NCBI RefSeq assembly: GCF_020523965.1
Contig: NZ_JAJAPX010000006.1
Location: 124,001-188,000, forward strand
Origin: Neotamlana sargassicola
Lineage (GTDB): Bacteria > Bacteroidota > Bacteroidia > Flavobacteriales > Flavobacteriaceae
DNA length: 64,000 nt
Reading direction: 5' to 3'
The position numbers were made by a program, and so were the translations under genes. Positions 988-51,989 of the stretch are shown here, in pieces; positions within the stretch are counted from its first letter, which is position 1, and the number at the start of each line of letters is the position of its first letter. Under the pieces are notes generated by a model. It was not told the DNA's origin. It was given only the letters and a program-made list of their open reading frames with translations, and ran no database searches.

Positions 988-3036
988 TTATTCTGGATAT
1001 TCAATTCTTAAATGGTAAATGTTTGCTAGCTTGTACTTTAGTACTTTTTTAATTGATTGAATTTCTTTAAAAGTAATATTAGCATTTAAAAATTGTTCCT
1101 CCTCTATTTGTTTATTTATAATATTTTCTACGAACGCTTCAATTTTTGTAGTCGTTGGCTCCTTTAAGCTTTTCGAGGCTGCTTCAACACTATCGCACAT
1201 CATTAAAATAGCAGTTTCTTTACTAAATGGTTTTGGTCCAGGATAACTAAAATCGGTTTTATTTACCTTTTCAAATTCCTTCTTCTCTTTCGCATAAAAA
1301 TAATACACTAAGCTTGTACCATGATGGGTACGAATAAAATCTATAACGCGATCTGGCAGATTGTATTTTCGAGCAATTTCAATGCCATTTATTACGTGAT
1401 TTACTATTATCTCAGCGCTTTCTTTATTCGATAATTCTTGATGCGGGTTAATGCCTGTAGATTGATTTTCGGTAAAATACGTCGGGTTTTTCATTTTACC
1501 TATGTCGTGATACAAGGCTCCTACACGTGCTAACATCGCATTTGCTCCTATTTCGTTCGCGCTGGCTTCAGCTAAATTAGCAACATTTAAAGAGTGATGA
1601 AATGTTCCTGGTGCTTTGTTCGATAGTTCTTTAAGTAACTTCGAATTTGTATCAGACAATTCTAACAAGGACACATCCGATACCAAACCAAATAATTTTT
1701 CGTAAGCATAAATTAAGGGCTGAACAAACAATGTTGCTAATCCGCATAAAATAAACCAAATAAAAGTTTCCCATTTTAATTCGGTAACACTACCTTCATG
1801 AATCACAAAAAACGCAAAATAGGCTATAATATAAATTAATGTAATTTGCCCTACAGAAATAAATAAATTAGCCCTTTTATAAAGCTCGGAAACCGTTAAT
1901 ATGGTTACAATACCGGCTATAATTTGTAAAAACATATACTCGTAACTGTTTGGCACTATAAAACCAAGTAATAGAACGGTTAGTACATGCGCAAACAAAC
2001 CTAAGCGCGCATCGAAAAAAGCCTTAAAAACCAATGGTAAAATACAAATAGGAACCACATAAATGTATTTTGAATTGTAATTAACAACCATTGTTGAAAT
2101 TAAAATAATCAAGGCTATATTAAAAAATATAAAAGTAACTTTCGTGTTATCATCGAAAACTGCAACACGGTATTTTTGTAAAAAAAGTAGCAACATCAAT
2201 AATGCCAACGCCACTAAAACGGTATATGCAATTAAAACCCATATGTAATTAGATTTATTCCAAACTTGCGACTCGTACTCCTGTTGCAACGATTTAAGTA
2301 TTTGGTAAGTACCCTCATCAACAACTTCTCCTTTCGAAATGATAAGTGTTTCTTTGGCTATGCTGCCTCGTGTAAACGAAATTTTATTAAGTTCGTTAGC
2401 CTTTACTTTATTTGTAAAAGAGCTATCAAACACTAAATTAGGTTCAACCAAATCAAAAAACAAAGCCGTAAACTCATTTCTATAATTTAATAAATTATTT
2501 CGTTTTAAAATAGTATTAATCACGGCAGATACATCGTCTTGACGAATTAAGTTTGCTATAAAACCTTCCTTTATCTGCTCTCGATTATTGAGTAAAATAA
2601 TTTGCCTTTCGGCGGAAAAATTGTGATTTTCCTTTAAAATACCATAATCGTATAAATTATTAATTATTTCATTTCCAACTTTTTTTATTTCAACTAAATC
2701 TGAAGCCGTAATAGAATCGTTAAATGCTTCCTTGTACTTTAAATAAAAAGCATTTTCAACTTTAGTTTTAACAGTATAATCTACATCAAAATACAACGGA
2801 ATTTGAGCCTCAACCTGCTCTTTTTCCGAAGCAATTTCTGCTTCAGTTTTCTTTATTGCAAAATTAAATGGTGCTTGTAAATTTTCCGATTGCCAAGGTT
2901 TTCCTTTTTCGAAATCGTATTTAAATTTTCCACTCTTCGGAAATAAATAAACAATAAAAAAAGTCGTTGCAACAAACAATAGTGCTTTATAAATTAAGGC
3001 ATGGTTTCTGTAAAGTTTGTTTATAAAATCTTTCAT
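988..3036 (-). CDS. pgpH: 7TM-HD family c-di-AMP phosphodiesterase (PgpH-like)
   Basis: 682 residues. An N-terminal membrane anchor (residues 15-32) is followed by an extracytoplasmic domain to about 265, then a block of about seven transmembrane helices (265-450), then a cytoplasmic HD domain with HDIG at residues 510-513 and the downstream HH pair (THHGTS). This is the 7TMR-HDED + 7TM + HDc order of PgpH, which in Listeria hydrolyses c-di-AMP. The family match is strong; c-di-AMP as substrate here is inferred. It is monocistronic and divergent from the thiolase. A TACATTTG -7 element lies at 3055-3062. Confidence 0.9.
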   Translation of the reverse strand: MKDFINKLYRNHALIYKALLFVATTFFIVYLFPKSGKFKYDFEKGKPWQSENLQAPFNFAIKKTEAEIASEKEQVEAQIPLYFDVDYTVKTKVENAFYLKYKEAFNDSITASDLVEIKKVGNEIINNLYDYGILKENHNFSAERQIILLNNREQIKEGFIANLIRQDDVSAVINTILKRNNLLNYRNEFTALFFDLVEPNLVFDSSFTNKVKANELNKISFTRGSIAKETLIISKGEVVDEGTYQILKSLQQEYESQVWNKSNYIWVLIAYTVLVALALLMLLLFLQKYRVAVFDDNTKVTFIFFNIALIILISTMVVNYNSKYIYVVPICILPLVFKAFFDARLGLFAHVLTVLLLGFIVPNSYEYMFLQIIAGIVTILTVSELYKRANLFISVGQITLIYIIAYFAFFVIHEGSVTELKWETFIWFILCGLATLFVQPLIYAYEKLFGLVSDVSLLELSDTNSKLLKELSNKAPGTFHHSLNVANLAEASANEIGANAMLARVGALYHDIGKMKNPTYFTENQSTGINPHQELSNKESAEIIVNHVINGIEIARKYNLPDRVIDFIRTHHGTSLVYYFYAKEKKEFEKVNKTDFSYPGPKPFSKETAILMMCDSVEAASKSLKEPTTTKIEAFVENIINKQIEEEQFLNANITFKEIQSIKKVLKYKLANIYHLRIEYPE

Positions 3037-3054
3037 TTATTACTAAGTGTAAAT

Positions 3055-3062
3055 CAAATGTA
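3055..3062 (-). promoter_or_regulatory. -7 element before pgpH
   Basis: TACATTTG on the minus strand, about 20 bases before the ATG. No clear -33 TTG at standard spacing. Confidence 0.5.
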
Positions 3063-3129
3063 ATAAAATTATAACCTTATACCGCGTTTTATATTCAACT
3101 TATAGCTTATTTATCTCTTAAAAAAACCT

Positions 3130-3137
3130 TACTTTCG
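3130..3137 (+). promoter_or_regulatory. -7 element before the thiolase gene
   Basis: TACTTTCG, one mismatch from TAnnTTTG, 26 bases before the thiolase ATG. No TTG is seen at the -33 position. Confidence 0.45.
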
Positions 3138-3163
3138 CGAGTACTAAACTATACATTTAGCTC

Positions 3164-4342
3164 ATGAATAACGAAGTCGTAATAGTATCTGCAGCAAGAA
3201 CACCAATTGGTAGTTTTTTGGGAGCACTATCTACAATACCGGCGCCAAAATTAGGTGCCGTTGCGATAAGAGGAGCGCTCGATAAAATAAATTTAAACCC
3301 CAATTTGGTAAACGAGGTTTTAATGGGACATGTGGTTCAAGCCGGATCTGGACAAGCGCCTGCGCGGCAAGCCGCTATTTTCGCTGGAATTCCAGATACA
3401 GTACCTTGTACAACAATAAATAAAGTTTGCGCTTCTGGAATGAAAGCGGTTATGCAAGCGGCACAAAGTATTGCCTTAGGTGATGCCGAAATTATTGTTG
3501 CAGGTGGTATGGAAAATATGAGCTTAATACCCCATTATTTTAATGCACGAACAGGAAAAAAGTTTGGACCTGTAACCCTTGAAGATGGCATGCAAAAAGA
3601 TGGTTTAGTAGATGTGTATAACCAAAACGCTATGGGCGTTTGTGCCGACGATTGCGCCATAAAATATAATTTTACTAGAGAAGAGCAAGATGCTTTTGCC
3701 ATACAATCGTACAAACGTTCGGCCGAAGCTTGGGCTAATGGAAAATTTAACAACGAAGTTGTACCTGTTGAAGTACCACAACGTCGTGGAGAACCTATTG
3801 TAGTAAGCCAAGACGAAGAATTTACCAACGTAAAACTCGATAAAATACCAACGTTACGTCCTGCATTTTCTAAAGACGGAACGGTAACAGCAGCAAACGC
3901 TTCAACCATAAACGACGGTGCTGGGGCTGTTGTGCTAATGAGCAAACAAAAAGCAAACGAGTTAGGAATAAAACCTTTAGCTACCATAAAAAGTTATGCC
4001 GATGCAGCGCACGAACCAGAATGGTTTACTACGGCGCCTGCCAAAGCATTACCAAAGGCTTTAGAAAAAGCAAATTTAAATATTGAAGATGTGGATTACT
4101 TTGAATTTAACGAAGCATTTTCTGTAGTTGGTTTGGCTAATATGAAAATTTTAGGATTAACAGACACCAATGTAAACGTAAATGGTGGTGCAGTTTCTCT
4201 TGGGCATCCATTAGGCTGTTCGGGTGTTAGAATTTTAATAACTTTACTTAACGTATTAAATCAAAATAATGCCAAAATTGGTGCAGCAGCTATTTGTAAT
4301 GGTGGTGGTGGCGCTTCGGCAGTTATTATAGAACGAAATTAA
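3164..4342 (+). CDS. Acetyl-CoA C-acyltransferase (thiolase)
   Basis: 392 residues, full thiolase length. The catalytic triad is in place: nucleophile Cys89 in [11 protein letters not shown], His348 in LGHPLGCSG, and Cys378 in CNGGGGASA. The enzyme condenses two acyl-CoA units or cleaves 3-ketoacyl-CoA. An acetoacetyl-CoA thiolase (AtoB-like) role is likely, since a 3-hydroxybutyryl-CoA dehydrogenase lies at 19704. It is followed after 5 bases by the NlpC/P60 gene, so the two are probably co-transcribed although unrelated in function. Confidence 0.95.
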
Positions 4343-4347
4343 TTTAA

Positions 4348-5097
4348 ATGCAGTACGGAATTTGTAATTTAAGTATTGTACCGCTTAGAAGTGAAGCTTC
4401 AGATAAAAGTGAACTTATCTCCCAAGTGTTGTACGGTGATATTTTTAAAATTATTGAACCTAGAAAAAAGTGGAGTAAAATCCGTTTAGCTTTCGATAAA
4501 TATGAAGGTTGGATAGACAATAAACAGTATTTCGAACTTACTGAAGAACAATACAAAACGTTTAACGCAGAAAGCCCTGTACTTACCTTAGACTTGGTTG
4601 AATTTATTGAAGATCAAAACAATCAACTTCACCCCATAGTTATGGGATCTACACTAAATGGTTTGAGCTTATTAGGGCATCAATACGACGGAAATAGTAC
4701 TAACTTAAAATCACCTAAAGAAAATTTATTAAATACCGCGTTTTTATATTTAAACGCGCCCTATTTATGGGGTGGCAAAACACCTTTTGGTATAGACTGT
4801 TCGGGCTTTACACAAATGGTTTATAAGTTAAATGGCTATAAATTGCTGCGCGATGCATCGCAACAAGCTACCCAAGGTGAAGCTTTAAGTTTTATAGAGG
4901 AAAGCGAACCCGGAGATTTAGCGTTTTTTGATAATGATGAAGGCATAATTACTCACGTTGGTATTATAATGCCCGATAATTATATTATTCATGCTCATGG
5001 CAAAATACGCATCGATAGAATTGACCATTCTGGAATATACAATGTGGATACTAAAACGCATTCGCATAAATTGAGGGTTATTAAAAAAATAATTTAG
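4348..5097 (+). CDS. C40 family peptidase (SH3b + NlpC/P60)
   Basis: 249 residues. An N-terminal bacterial SH3-type domain spans residues 1-75 (RSEASDKSELISQ, then WSKIRL and GWI). An NlpC/P60 domain spans about 125-245, with catalytic Cys151 in GIDCSGF, His203 in ITHVGI and a third polar residue at His215 or His217. Such enzymes cleave D-glutamyl-diamino acid bonds in cell-wall peptides. No signal peptide is visible, so a role in recycling cytoplasmic muropeptides (YkfC-like) is plausible. It converges on the DUF2589 operon with only 4 bases between stop codons and no terminator. Confidence 0.9.
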   Translation: MQYGICNLSIVPLRSEASDKSELISQVLYGDIFKIIEPRKKWSKIRLAFDKYEGWIDNKQYFELTEEQYKTFNAESPVLTLDLVEFIEDQNNQLHPIVMGSTLNGLSLLGHQYDGNSTNLKSPKENLLNTAFLYLNAPYLWGGKTPFGIDCSGFTQMVYKLNGYKLLRDASQQATQGEALSFIEESEPGDLAFFDNDEGIITHVGIIMPDNYIIHAHGKIRIDRIDHSGIYNVDTKTHSHKLRVIKKII

Positions 5098-5101
5098 CAA
5101 A

Positions 5102-5647
5102 TTACATTTCAATTTCTTCGGCTAGTATTTGAATGCCGTCTGCCATCCCAATTAATGCCTTAACATTATTCATACCATTGCGTAACTGTTCGTGAGCCAC
5201 TAAAATACTCCATACGTTATACACGTAGCTATTAAAATCTTGTGGCGTTGCTTCCGGTAAAATGCCTAAGCTTATAGCCACATTTAATATTTGTTTTAGT
5301 AAACCTTTAGCCTGTTCAATTTTTTCTTCTAAGGGCAAAATAATTTGAGAAACCACCTCTTGTGCCGGATGAATTATTTCCAAGGCCTTACTAATCTGTC
5401 GTTTTTTGCGCTCGTTGGGTTTCCCATTCAATACAAACTTTTGTTGTGCTAGTTGTGCGCGTAAACCAGACACTTCGGCACATTGCGTATAATTTAAAGT
5501 TTTTAAAGTATCCTCGGTTGTTTCAAGCCATGTAAACAAAGTATCAATAGAGCTAAATTTTTTTTGATGAATATCGGTTACCAACCTAGGAAGCTCCATT
5601 AATTTAGGTTTTAATTGATTTATAATATATAAAGACGACTTTTTCAC
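5102..5647 (-). CDS. Uncharacterised helical protein, third gene of the DUF2589 operon
   Basis: 181 residues, no signal peptide or membrane segment. The composition is mainly helical (Leu, Glu, Gln, Lys), with probable coiled coil in residues 55-125 including NERKKRQISKALE. The C-terminus is acidic. I do not recognise a family. It starts 8 bases after the stop of the gene at 5656-6339, so it is translated from the same message. The three-gene context suggests a partner of the DUF2589 protein; this is inference from position only. Confidence 0.7.
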   Translation of the reverse strand: MKKSSLYIINQLKPKLMELPRLVTDIHQKKFSSIDTLFTWLETTEDTLKTLNYTQCAEVSGLRAQLAQQKFVLNGKPNERKKRQISKALEIIHPAQEVVSQIILPLEEKIEQAKGLLKQILNVAISLGILPEATPQDFNSYVYNVWSILVAHEQLRNGMNNVKALIGMADGIQILAEEIEM

Positions 5648-5655
5648 AAGATAAT

Positions 5656-6339
5656 TTATTCTGGTAATAACTTAGTTTCAACCTCACCATTATCGCGCTC
5701 AATGGTTTGCCATTCCATACCCTCTTCAACTAAAGTCATTTTAATGCGTACAATATTTTCTGGTGGAATTTCTTTTAATTGATGCGATTGTACTAAAACC
5801 TTAGTATTATCCATATCAATTGTTTTTTTAGGCTCTTGAATTTTGGAAATTAACGATTCTTGTAATTGAGTTGTTAATTTGCCCTGAATCTCTTTATCAT
5901 CATTTTTAGTTGCTGTTATAAAAAAACGAGAAACACTAGTAGCAAATTTATTTAACGATTTTCGAATATCTTCTTTAGCTTTTAAGTCTTTTTCTAATAC
6001 ATCGGTATCTGCAGCAATGCGTTTTCTTAATAAATCGGATTGTTTTCTATCAAAGCTATCAACCCTCAAAACATCTTTAAACACATTATACGCATACGAG
6101 TTGAAGCTTTTATTATCGATTGGCTGATAATTTTTTTCTTCAACTTCATTCAATTCATCAATAGCAATAGGAATATCCAATTCTATATTAGAAGCCTTAA
6201 ATCGGGGCACCGAAAAGTTTTTTAATATAGAATTGGCAGCATAAGCCTCGGCTATTTTGGCCGATTCTACATCGGCCATAGCACGGGCTTGATTTATTCC
6301 AGACACTAAAGACCCTAAATAATCTTTTAAAAGTGGCAT
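5656..6339 (-). CDS. Conserved uncharacterised protein, second gene of the DUF2589 operon
   Basis: 227 residues, cytoplasmic by appearance. An Ala-rich amphipathic helix (residues 1-40, SLVSGINQARAMADVES) is followed by a short strand-forming segment (FSVPRFKASNIELDIPIAI, 41-59), a long charged helical part (80-150), and a C-terminal piece with alternating hydrophobic residues (180-227). The helix-then-strand start resembles the layout of the upstream DUF2589 protein. The gap to that gene is 11 bases. No catalytic motif is visible and the function is unknown. Confidence 0.7.
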   Translation of the reverse strand: MPLLKDYLGSLVSGINQARAMADVESAKIAEAYAANSILKNFSVPRFKASNIELDIPIAIDELNEVEEKNYQPIDNKSFNSYAYNVFKDVLRVDSFDRKQSDLLRKRIAADTDVLEKDLKAKEDIRKSLNKFATSVSRFFITATKNDDKEIQGKLTTQLQESLISKIQEPKKTIDMDNTKVLVQSHQLKEIPPENIVRIKMTLVEEGMEWQTIERDNGEVETKLLPE

Positions 6340-6350
6340 AATGTATAGGA

Positions 6351-7301
6351 TTATTGATTTGCTGGTAAGCCAACAATAGACTCTTCAAGAATATTTAAAA
6401 TCTTCTCCATACCTCCAGGCATTTCGTCTTGACTTGCTTTAACATTTACACCTAACTGATAGGTTTTTTCTACTTTACTACCAGCACGCGATGTTCTTTT
6501 ATAAGAAGCATTCACCTTAAAACTAACTGAGTTAGTAAAACTAGTTGACGCACTACCTTTAGCTAATAATGAACTTAAACCGCTTGTACCCGCAGAAACA
6601 CTACCTTTTACGGTATTTTTCATAGCAAAGCTACTGGATGCGTTAAACTCTGAAGCAACATTGCGATACTCCATAGAGTTAATTTTTGCATTAAAATCGA
6701 TAGTAGCCTCGTCTATTCGAATAAAAGGAATTGGCACCATAGTTAATAAAGGTACTTCCAGTTTCATTTCGTCGTAAACCGCTGGTACAGCTACTTCATC
6801 TCTTGTTGTTAAAGAAGCTTCAGCAGTTTCAACTGCCGACGGGTCTGCTGTACTGTTGTACGTTATGGTAATAGTATCGTCATCTGAATAACCTTCTCCT
6901 CCACTTTGCAATGCTAAATCGATACCATTAGAACCGTTTACAGAAGCGACTACATTGCCACCTGTACCCGTCGATGTTGTAATTATTACGCTAACAATAG
7001 AATCGGCATCGCTTACACTTCCGCTTAGCGAAACACCATCAATAATTCCATTTTTAGCGGGTATATAAGGCGCGACTTGTTTAGGGTATTTAAACTGAAC
7101 ATACACTGGTCCTCCCGGAGTAATTTCACCAGTTGTTGGATCTTCAGAATCTTGTTCGAAACCAACACTTTTAATAAAACCTACAGTTGAAAGTGCTGCT
7201 TGAGCTTGGGCTTCTACAACTGCTGTTAATGGACCACCAATCATGGAACGAAAATCGATGGATGATAGCTCTTGCCCTGGATTATAGTTTGAAACTGCCA
7301 T
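6351..7301 (-). CDS. DUF2589 domain protein with an inserted beta-rich segment
   Basis: 316 residues. The N-terminus (SIDFRSMIGGPLTAVVEAQAQAA...) carries the IGGPL...AVxEAQAQAA signature of DUF2589. The C-terminal half (175-316) has the rest: VPLLTMVPIPFIRIDEATIDF, then Ser/Ala/Asn-rich strands and a final MPGGMEKILNILEE helix. Residues 82-170 are an extra Gly/Ser/Thr/Asp-rich segment with GGEGYSDDDTITI, not typical of the short family members I recall and similar in style to beta repeats of tail-fibre or adhesin proteins. There is no signal peptide. It is first in a three-gene operon with a leader of more than 100 bases. DUF2589 has no established function. Confidence 0.8.
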   Translation of the reverse strand: MAVSNYNPGQELSSIDFRSMIGGPLTAVVEAQAQAALSTVGFIKSVGFEQDSEDPTTGEITPGGPVYVQFKYPKQVAPYIPAKNGIIDGVSLSGSVSDADSIVSVIITTSTGTGGNVVASVNGSNGIDLALQSGGEGYSDDDTITITYNSTADPSAVETAEASLTTRDEVAVPAVYDEMKLEVPLLTMVPIPFIRIDEATIDFNAKINSMEYRNVASEFNASSSFAMKNTVKGSVSAGTSGLSSLLAKGSASTSFTNSVSFKVNASYKRTSRAGSKVEKTYQLGVNVKASQDEMPGGMEKILNILEESIVGLPANQ

Positions 7302-7465
7302 AATAAATTTAATTTAGTACCTACTCGTTTAAATACAGGCTTTTCGGTTAACGCCTTATTATGAAAAAATCTCGGGAAGAAGTATATACAAATGTCCTTT
7401 AAAAGTATTTACATTTCAAGAGGGAAAACACCCATTTGTTAAAAGAAAATACCCAAAAAACAAAA
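7302..7465. other. Intergenic region upstream of the DUF2589 operon
   Basis: 164 bases with no gene. On the minus strand it should hold the operon promoter and leader. Only weak TACTTTTA-type matches to the -7 consensus are visible, so I do not place a promoter. Confidence 0.4.
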
Positions 7466-7467
7466 AA

Positions 7468-7494
7468 CCCGAAGTAAAAACTTCGGGCTTTTTT
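7468..7494 (-). terminator. Terminator of the DUF4293 gene
   Basis: The stem CCCGAAGT (7468-7475) / ACTTCGGG (7480-7487) has an AAAA loop, with A and T runs on both flanks. It lies between the DUF4293 stop and the start of the DUF2589 operon. Confidence 0.85.
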
Positions 7495-51879: not shown

Positions 51880-51914
51880 AAAAGCCAGAAACTTATGTTT
51901 CTGGCTTTTTTTTG
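51880..51914 (-). terminator. Terminator of the second tRNA-Pro
   Basis: GCCAGAAAC / GTTTCTGGC, nearly identical to the hairpin at 627-658, with A and T runs on both sides. Confidence 0.85.
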
Positions 51915-51989
51915 TCGGGGTGGCAGGATTCGAACCTGCGACCTCCGCGTCCCAAACGCGGCGCGATAACCGGGCTACGCTACACCCCG
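51915..51989 (-). tRNA. tRNA-Pro (anticodon TGG), second identical copy
   Basis: Identical in all 75 positions to 660-734. The anticodon loop is TTTGGGA, the acceptor CGGGGTG/CACCCCG, with no encoded CCA. It has its own promoter at 52049-52079 and terminator at 51880. Confidence 0.97.

Follow-up and report, generated by a model that had tools for sequence, protein, structure and literature searches.

A conserved three-gene DUF2589 unit in Neotamlana sargassicola and its relatives, with a possible link to cell lysis

Three adjoining genes in the window

A stretch of 64,000 nucleotides from the genome of Neotamlana sargassicola (assembly GCF_020523965.1, contig NZ_JAJAPX010000006.1, positions 124,001 to 188,000 of the forward strand), hereafter the window, carries three genes that encode a DUF2589 protein (P1) and two proteins, P2 and P3, without a curated family. 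These three open reading frames (ORFs), together called the trio, run in the same direction with gaps of 11 bases between P1 and P2 and 8 bases between P2 and P3, just as a preliminary description of this DNA, made from the letters alone, had drawn them:

6351..7301, minus strand: P1, DUF2589 protein of 316 residues, ATG start (PF11655, E 7.2e-26, 91.8 bits)
5656..6339, minus strand: P2, partner without a named family, 227 residues, ATG start (model with a predicted local distance difference test score, pLDDT, of 86.6)
5102..5647, minus strand: P3, 181 residues, GTG start, apparently helical by the look of the sequence

P1 exceeds by far the Pfam gathering threshold of 23 bits for DUF2589, the family to which it had already been assigned. 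Searches with hidden Markov models gave no match above any Pfam cut-off for P2 and P3, and none of the three proteins matched an NCBIfam or PADLOC model to E 0.01. The GTG start of P3 is common to two congeners. Signal peptides are not evident by eye in P1, P2 or P3, in line with that description, and the top mean Kyte-Doolittle hydropathy over any 19 residues of the three proteins is 1.23. A promoter region shared by the three genes, as previously suggested, is plausible, although sigma-70-like sites between 4900 and 7700 gave 8 matches versus 10.3 in shuffled sequences, none of them upstream of P1, and a Bacteroidota-type site was not found upstream of P1 either.

The trio is a conserved unit under purifying selection

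A survey of 395 genomes of the phylum, plus 14 well-known control genomes, identified DUF2589 in 28 and P2 in 17 of the phylum genomes and DUF2589 in none of the 14 controls. DUF2589 adjoins P2 in 16 of the 17 P2-bearing genomes, the seventeenth (G439; G and L numbers are our handles for genomes and loci) lacking DUF2589 and having a weak P2 match (E 7e-4). Fifteen of these 16 genomes also have P3, with G225 as the exception and a different gene order in G400. A scan of contigs with the P1 alignment, in which the best 80 of 262 relatives were kept and which is therefore biased towards near relatives, found P1 and P2 at all 80 loci and P3 at 79, the remaining locus (L171) ending soon after P2. 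Six Lysobacteraceae/Lysobacterales loci and one of Alteromonas halophila are among these best 80 of 262. At the 77 loci with single copies, the median gap between P2 and P3 is 3 bases (stop codon included; range 2-17), the median distance between P1 and P2 is 62, and the distance matrices of P1, P2 and P3 correlate at 0.93-0.96, as for genes travelling together. Trio loci are also syntenic across many Chryseobacterium species. The three genes, whose joint occurrence in other genomes the preliminary description had proposed to check, are conserved together in Bacteroidota and outside it, in Pseudomonadota, with P2 and P3 abutting in 77 loci. These observations show that the trio is a genuine unit, far beyond chance; that it acts as one is well supported, and P3 belongs to the unit no less than P1 and P2 do. 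To this extent, the earlier reading of the three proteins as acting jointly stands. The two-component assembly (particle, pore or scaffold) proposed there is partly supported, the module having three genes.

Within the genus, P1 occurs in three of four genomes, the window's included. The fourth (G149) has an empty site, where DUF4293-like and metallophosphoesterase-like genes adjoin, with match ends 68 bases apart; the metallophosphoesterase-like gene comes after the trio in G150 and G138. A site that is occupied or empty within one genus could be taken as the trace of a remnant of mobile or prophage DNA, kept by transfer and with no selected function in the host, and phage-like or integrase-like genes were indeed seen by eye beside L187, L225 and L079. 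However, the ratios of nonsynonymous to synonymous substitution rates (dN/dS) among the three congeners lie between 0.03 and 0.08 (0.040-0.045 for P1, 0.045-0.075 for P2 and 0.027-0.051 for P3), and, of the 80 fetched loci, nearly all retain intact frames, the exceptions being a split P2 in L179 and a split P3 in L130. Selection on the trio is strongly purifying, which largely refutes such a hitchhiking origin and leaves it very improbable. At L187, the tail-like genes occupy the opposite strand, and we attribute them to a neighbouring prophage.

Four genomes of one genus (G166, G205, G276 and G295) contain only ORFs of 97-115 residues with the first 41-51 DUF2589 positions, perhaps decayed or split copies. 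Collections of viruses and plasmids gave few matches, 0-1 per search, except for 5 and 4 plasmids in overlapping records. The Vibrio plasmids pFP31 and pVDT1 (L226 and L228) carry DUF2589 genes; in both, the best-matching DUF2589 stretch lies beside the annotated DUF2589 gene and is itself missing from the gene table.

Domain architecture and predicted structures

Alignments and structure models delimit the following segments:

7161..7253, minus strand: P1 residues 17-47, conserved Ala-rich helix with an IGGPL..A..AQ motif (alignments and helix of the model)
6792..7055, minus strand: P1 residues ~83-170, inserted glycine-rich beta domain, missing from most aligned relatives (model pLDDT <60)
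6441..6707, minus strand: P1 residues 199-287, predicted to fold as an extended beta hairpin of two long strands, with a low-confidence Ser/Gly-rich tip (model)
6130..6237, minus strand: P2 residues 35-70, motif like the DUF2589 strand motif (hhalign E 0.0019, probability 14%)
5848..6114, minus strand: P2 residues 76-164, predicted four-helix insertion, variable among relatives (model and alignment)

The model of P1 (m6eb1150dd398) is poor, with a pLDDT of 60.5. It comprises a helix of 31 residues, strands, a very long hairpin of two strands (199-227 and 259-287) and, at the C-terminus, another helix. According to the alignment, the tip of the hairpin is an insertion relative to most relatives, and the two insertions of the window P1 probably hurt the quality of its model. 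From this weak model, Foldseek gave no significant match in the PDB (best E 7.6) and VIA none at Z >=2 among 8 chains, so that neither a gasdermin fold nor an HK97 fold was matched. The sequence of P1 alone found nothing convincing in the PDB (best E 0.033), a profile search of the PDB found no relative, and in BFVD P1 was matched by one viral protein without a name (E 3.3e-4). A single weak match in PHROGs, to a head closure protein (E 8.8e-4), covers residues 82-261; we rejected it as a trait of the family and read it as a property of the inserted repeat.

The model of P2 (m0aceb10e3413) is good, with a predicted template modelling score of 0.56, and its order is a 32-residue helix, a long strand, the four-helix insertion and three strands. 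The preliminary description had given P1 and P2 a similar start of helix and then strand. PF11655 does not match P2 up to E 1, and the comparison of P2 with the DUF2589/P1 alignments by hhalign offers weak profile support only, at the values listed above, having given a probability of 0.8% with earlier, smaller alignments. Because the strand motifs of the two align, P2 may be a divergent paralogue of the DUF2589 protein, a weak suggestion drawn from sequence profiles. In the PDB, the best profile match of P2 was a designed helical protein (E 0.007) and its model had no significant Foldseek match (best E 0.056). The best VIA match (Z 6.7, root mean square deviation 3.8 over 98 residues) falls on the predicted helical insertion and is within the range of common arrangements. 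P2 had one match in PHROGs at E 0.017 and P3 had none; the profile search of the PDB with P3 gave nothing convincing (best E 0.23).

Proteases, phospholipases and lysis enzymes adjoin the trio in relatives

We classified 134 P1 loci, some of them from genomes fetched twice by different routes, and scanned one representative of each neighbour family. Fifty loci hold the trio with a subtilisin, 25 the trio with an M15 peptidase and a patatin, and 42 the trio with neither kind of neighbour; P1 stands alone in 12, and the remaining 5 loci are incomplete. The pair of M15 and patatin also occurs at one locus at a contig end. The subtilisin has an S8 domain (E 1.4e-53), and its D, H and S motifs can be read by eye in the translation. 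Its presence coincides with an N-terminal extension of P1 of ~95 residues: both occur in 50 of the 117 trio loci and neither in 67, with no mixed case, a pairing that spans Weeksellaceae, Flavobacteriaceae (the family of the window), Dysgonomonadaceae and Saprospiraceae. In 48 of the 50 subtilisin loci, a small separate protein follows the protease. By eye it resembles an I9 propeptide, and we do not claim an inhibitor role for it; that candidate was dropped, the comparison with the subtilisin prodomain profile reaching only E 0.0069 over 11 columns. A profile search of this small protein found no relative in the PDB.

The M15 neighbour is of the phage-endolysin type (phrog_2649, E 1.3e-30). 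The patatin is CapV-like, with E 1.7e-60 to the PADLOC model PDLC00758 and 158 bits to NCBIfam NF041079, below the cut-off of 200. In a Tenacibaculum branch, a CHAP protein comes after P3 (L081/L131, which are one genome, L105, L121 and L136) and matches PF05257 (E 8.7e-9) and phrog_1259, 'baseplate hub subunit and tail lysozyme' (E 2.4e-31); L121 adds a holin (PF05105, E 2.1e-13), followed by a 195-residue ORF without a match. Further neighbours include a peptidoglycan-binding protein after P3 (L084), a DUF5675 protein before P1 (L164) and, one gene away from the trio on the other strand, a phrog_3000 protein (L079). Three of five fibre candidates beside Chryseobacterium and Tenacibaculum trios have tail-fibre-like or head-decoration-like matches in PHROGs, and one of them resembles, at its N-terminus, a phage structural protein (Flavobacterium phage vB_FspM_lotta8-1; 45% over 63 residues, E 2e-4). 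At L076 (genome G240, 2622-6815), a TcB-like gene with SpvB and TcdB_toxin_mid domains comes after the trio on the same strand. Sheath, tube and baseplate genes were not seen by eye in the flanks of the window trio or in the neighbourhoods that we read. A LytTR regulator was considered as a general partner and dropped; among the matches listed, it lies near DUF2589 in G077 and G484.

DUF2589 genes in arrangements other than the trio also have neighbours of this kind: a GH25 protein at L088, a muramidase with a peptidoglycan-binding domain at L188, a peptidoglycan-binding protein at L215, a phrog_3000 protein at L010 and, at a locus without P2 (L214), a Trypsin_2 protein. Small ORFs beside DUF2589 at L220 (7597-8022) and L216 (4134-4496) look caspase-like by eye, with His-Gly and Ser-Thr-Cys motifs, and had no convincing Pfam match. 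Two contigs are filed as viral: L188 (MT839761.1, human gut), with P1, P2, a second DUF2589 gene by hidden Markov model, the endolysin and a zinc-ribbon-like ORF by eye, and L225 (IMG/VR), with a similar P1, to which inspection by eye added P2, another DUF2589 gene and a tyrosine recombinase. Both may be fragments of host DNA.

Could the trio be a suicide or anti-phage module that senses infection or damage and switches on an adjoining killer, be it the CapV-like patatin, the subtilisin, a trypsin-like protease or an endolysin? The fit of the patatin to phospholipase models of the cyclic oligonucleotide-based anti-phage signalling system (CBASS), the Trypsin_2 neighbour at L214, the patchy distribution (28 of 395 genomes), the clean empty site in a congener and single neighbours that match the candidate defence families PDC-S05 and PDC-S23 would all agree with it. 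So would the perfect coincidence of extension and subtilisin: proteases activate gasdermins, and by analogy P1 might become active once the subtilisin cuts off the N-terminal extension. However, no PADLOC model matches the trio itself, a Pfam scan recognised no nucleoside triphosphatase (NTPase) or sensor domain in it, the patatin stays below its NCBIfam cut-off, and the loci are syntenic in many Chryseobacterium species, all of which speak against such a module. Moreover, in a set of 144 neighbours, taken from the relatives and not from the window, the only PADLOC models matched by more than one of these neighbours were those of subtilases (subtilase and IetS), whose matches we take to be the eight S8 proteins. 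We consider this explanation unlikely, though with a chance that should be kept in mind.

Enrichment of peptidoglycan hydrolases near DUF2589

The frequency of hydrolases near DUF2589 was examined in 24 genomes (~84.6 Mb, with rounded genome sizes), namely 23 of the 28 genomes in which the phylum survey had found DUF2589 (minus G166, G205, G276, G295 and G522) and G077, in which 27 DUF2589 loci were counted by hand. These genomes contain 37 matches to CHAP, M15_4 and GH25 (15, 10 and 12, respectively), and 5 of the 37 (2 CHAP, 2 M15_4 and 1 GH25) lie within 5 kb of a DUF2589 locus, against 0.12 expected. This enrichment supports a link of the loci with lysis.

An alternative is that the trio forms a structural or regulatory complex of the cell, made constitutively or under stress and unconnected with death, for which the lytic enzymes would be regulated clients or chance neighbours. 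Strong purifying selection suits such a complex, as do the trios that have neither subtilisin nor patatin/M15, the two-component regulators near several loci, and the retention of the trio in Lysobacteraceae and Alteromonas, where no lysis gene was recognised by eye. Yet unrelated families of peptidoglycan hydrolases recur beside unrelated DUF2589 lineages, which chance or simple regulation explain poorly, and a sporadic distribution would be unusual for a core structural role. We regard this alternative as doubtful but a serious contender.

Surroundings of the trio in the window

7462..7493, minus strand: terminator-like hairpin of 14 pairs, between the trio and the upstream gene, which by eye looks DUF4293-like

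The genes that flank the trio have a housekeeping look and presumably include Rho and a thiolase, both named by eye. The thiolase and an SH3-NlpC/P60 peptidase (Pfam) form a pair at 3164-5097, on the strand opposite to the trio and convergent to P3, four bases from the P3 stop. The same order is found in G151, and there are other neighbours on that side of the trio in G150 and G138, so that a rearrangement took place there. The NlpC/P60 gene was rejected as a partner of the trio, being convergent and not beside it in G150 or G138. An activating protease was not found beside the trio in the window, the NlpC/P60 neighbour being a cell-wall peptidase. Elsewhere in the window there are two tRNA-Pro genes far apart with the same anticodon (tgg), at 659-734 and 51914-51989, and a tRNA-Ser gene at 811-895.

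Discussion

What could a conserved trio with such neighbours do? The explanation that we favour, tentatively, is that the trio forms the core of an assembly in the cytoplasm, with either its action or its release coupled to self-lysis. P1, P2 and P3 would join in one cytoplasmic multi-protein assembly, and one physical complex of the three is likely. In it, the DUF2589 subunit P1 would contribute a long helix and an extended beta hairpin. P2, which may be a divergent relative of P1 bearing a helical insertion, would be made in step with P3, its helical partner. The action or release of the assembly would be tied to the programmed lysis of the producer cell. In several lineages, genes for enzymes that open cells lie alongside the trio, either a peptidoglycan hydrolase of the endolysin type (in one case with a holin) or a phospholipase. 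Tail-fibre-like proteins go with it in some lineages and, in another clade, the trio is encoded with an intracellular subtilisin, which may process the additional N-terminal domain found in the P1 of that clade only. In the window, a partner, if any, would act in trans.

The recurrence of endolysin-type enzymes, a holin, fibre-like proteins, patatin and subtilisin beside the trios of relatives suggests a lysis-linked role as the best reading of these neighbours. We prefer an assembly to a suicide module for defence because neither a sensor nor an NTPase was recognised in the trio, the insertion in the window P1 has a phage-structural flavour and some trios have fibre-like neighbours. A stronger version, in which DUF2589, P2 and P3 build an undescribed fibre-bearing particle or weapon, a cytoplasmic assembly matured by subtilisin in one clade through removal of the P1 extension and released by endolysin or phospholipase, seems to us rather improbable.

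Several observations weigh against a coupling to lysis. Trios with neither subtilisin nor patatin/M15 account for 42 of the 134 P1 loci (CHAP loci among them). No capsid, sheath or tube gene was recognised with the trio, two of the five fibre candidates have no match in PHROGs, and the CHAP ORF beside the holin of L121 has 126 residues versus 143-156 in relatives. Counted by lineage, the enrichment amounts to 3 events, and it is partly circular and not an independent test, because CHAP, M15_4 and GH25 were selected once they had been noticed. In a quick tree of 88 P2 proteins, which has several long branches, the subtilisin type has one origin (its sole exception being a contig end), and so has the patatin type; the match of subtilisin and extension is therefore one event, not many. 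Finally, no gene for a phage-type endolysin, a fibre or a subtilisin-type protease adjoins the trio in the window, and the genome of the window has no match to CHAP, M15_4 or GH25. The CHAP loci fall in the same 17-row clade of the P2 tree as the window trio; this clade mixes loci with and without CHAP, and the link with lysis is weaker for the window copy. Since that copy has no lysis-type neighbour, its own role is one that we infer.

How does the trio compare with known systems? In phage prohead maturation, a protease acts together with an N-terminal delta domain, and the coincidence of ~95 N-terminal P1 residues with a protease in the same locus is reminiscent of it; in contrast, no capsid fold was found here, the protease is a subtilisin and the pairing has one evolutionary origin. 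Bacterial gasdermin operons combine a pore-forming substrate with a protease, a logic that subtilisin-type loci might share, but no homology or fold match to them was detected and no protease lies beside the window trio. As in CBASS with CapV-type phospholipases, a patatin that fits CapV-like models (by its one representative) stands beside 26 loci; unlike CBASS, the patatin falls short of the NCBIfam cut-off, inspection of L078 by eye showed no cyclic-nucleotide synthase, and the window lacks the patatin altogether. P1 clearly belongs to the DUF2589 family (PF11655), and some other loci of that family, holding two or three paralogues, likewise have a peptidoglycan hydrolase next to them. The P1-P2-P3 arrangement differs in being one branch of the family, in that the Pfam model does not cover P2 and P3, and in the two insertions that the P1 of the window carries. 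In type 10 secretion, described for Yersinia entomophaga among others, cytoplasmic toxins of large size are released by a lysis cassette (PMC10847048). The trio is similar in that its proteins have no evident signal peptides, phage-type lysis enzymes lie alongside in relatives and L076 has a TcB-like gene; it differs in that it is not itself a lysis cassette, a holin was seen once, loci other than L121 having had no individual search for holins, no spanin was identified and the window has none of these.

In the open-licence PMC literature that was searched, DUF2589 is named in a single sentence of one paper and PF11655 nowhere. A passage on Archaeoglobus fulgidus reports AF0414-AF0417, in a DUF2589 context, as up-regulated with lactate (PMC3949148). 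Lysis-coupled modules are known, and for P1, P2 and P3 themselves no characterised relative was found in our searches. A three-gene module without an assigned function thus ranges across Bacteroidota into Gammaproteobacteria, and its recurrent pairing with cell-opening enzymes makes the function testable, by asking whether the three proteins assemble, whether lysis releases them and whether P1 is a substrate of the subtilisin. Confirmation of either reading, an assembly set free by lysis or a suicide module of a new type, would give a function to the DUF2589 family, which is reported from an archaeon to Vibrio plasmids.

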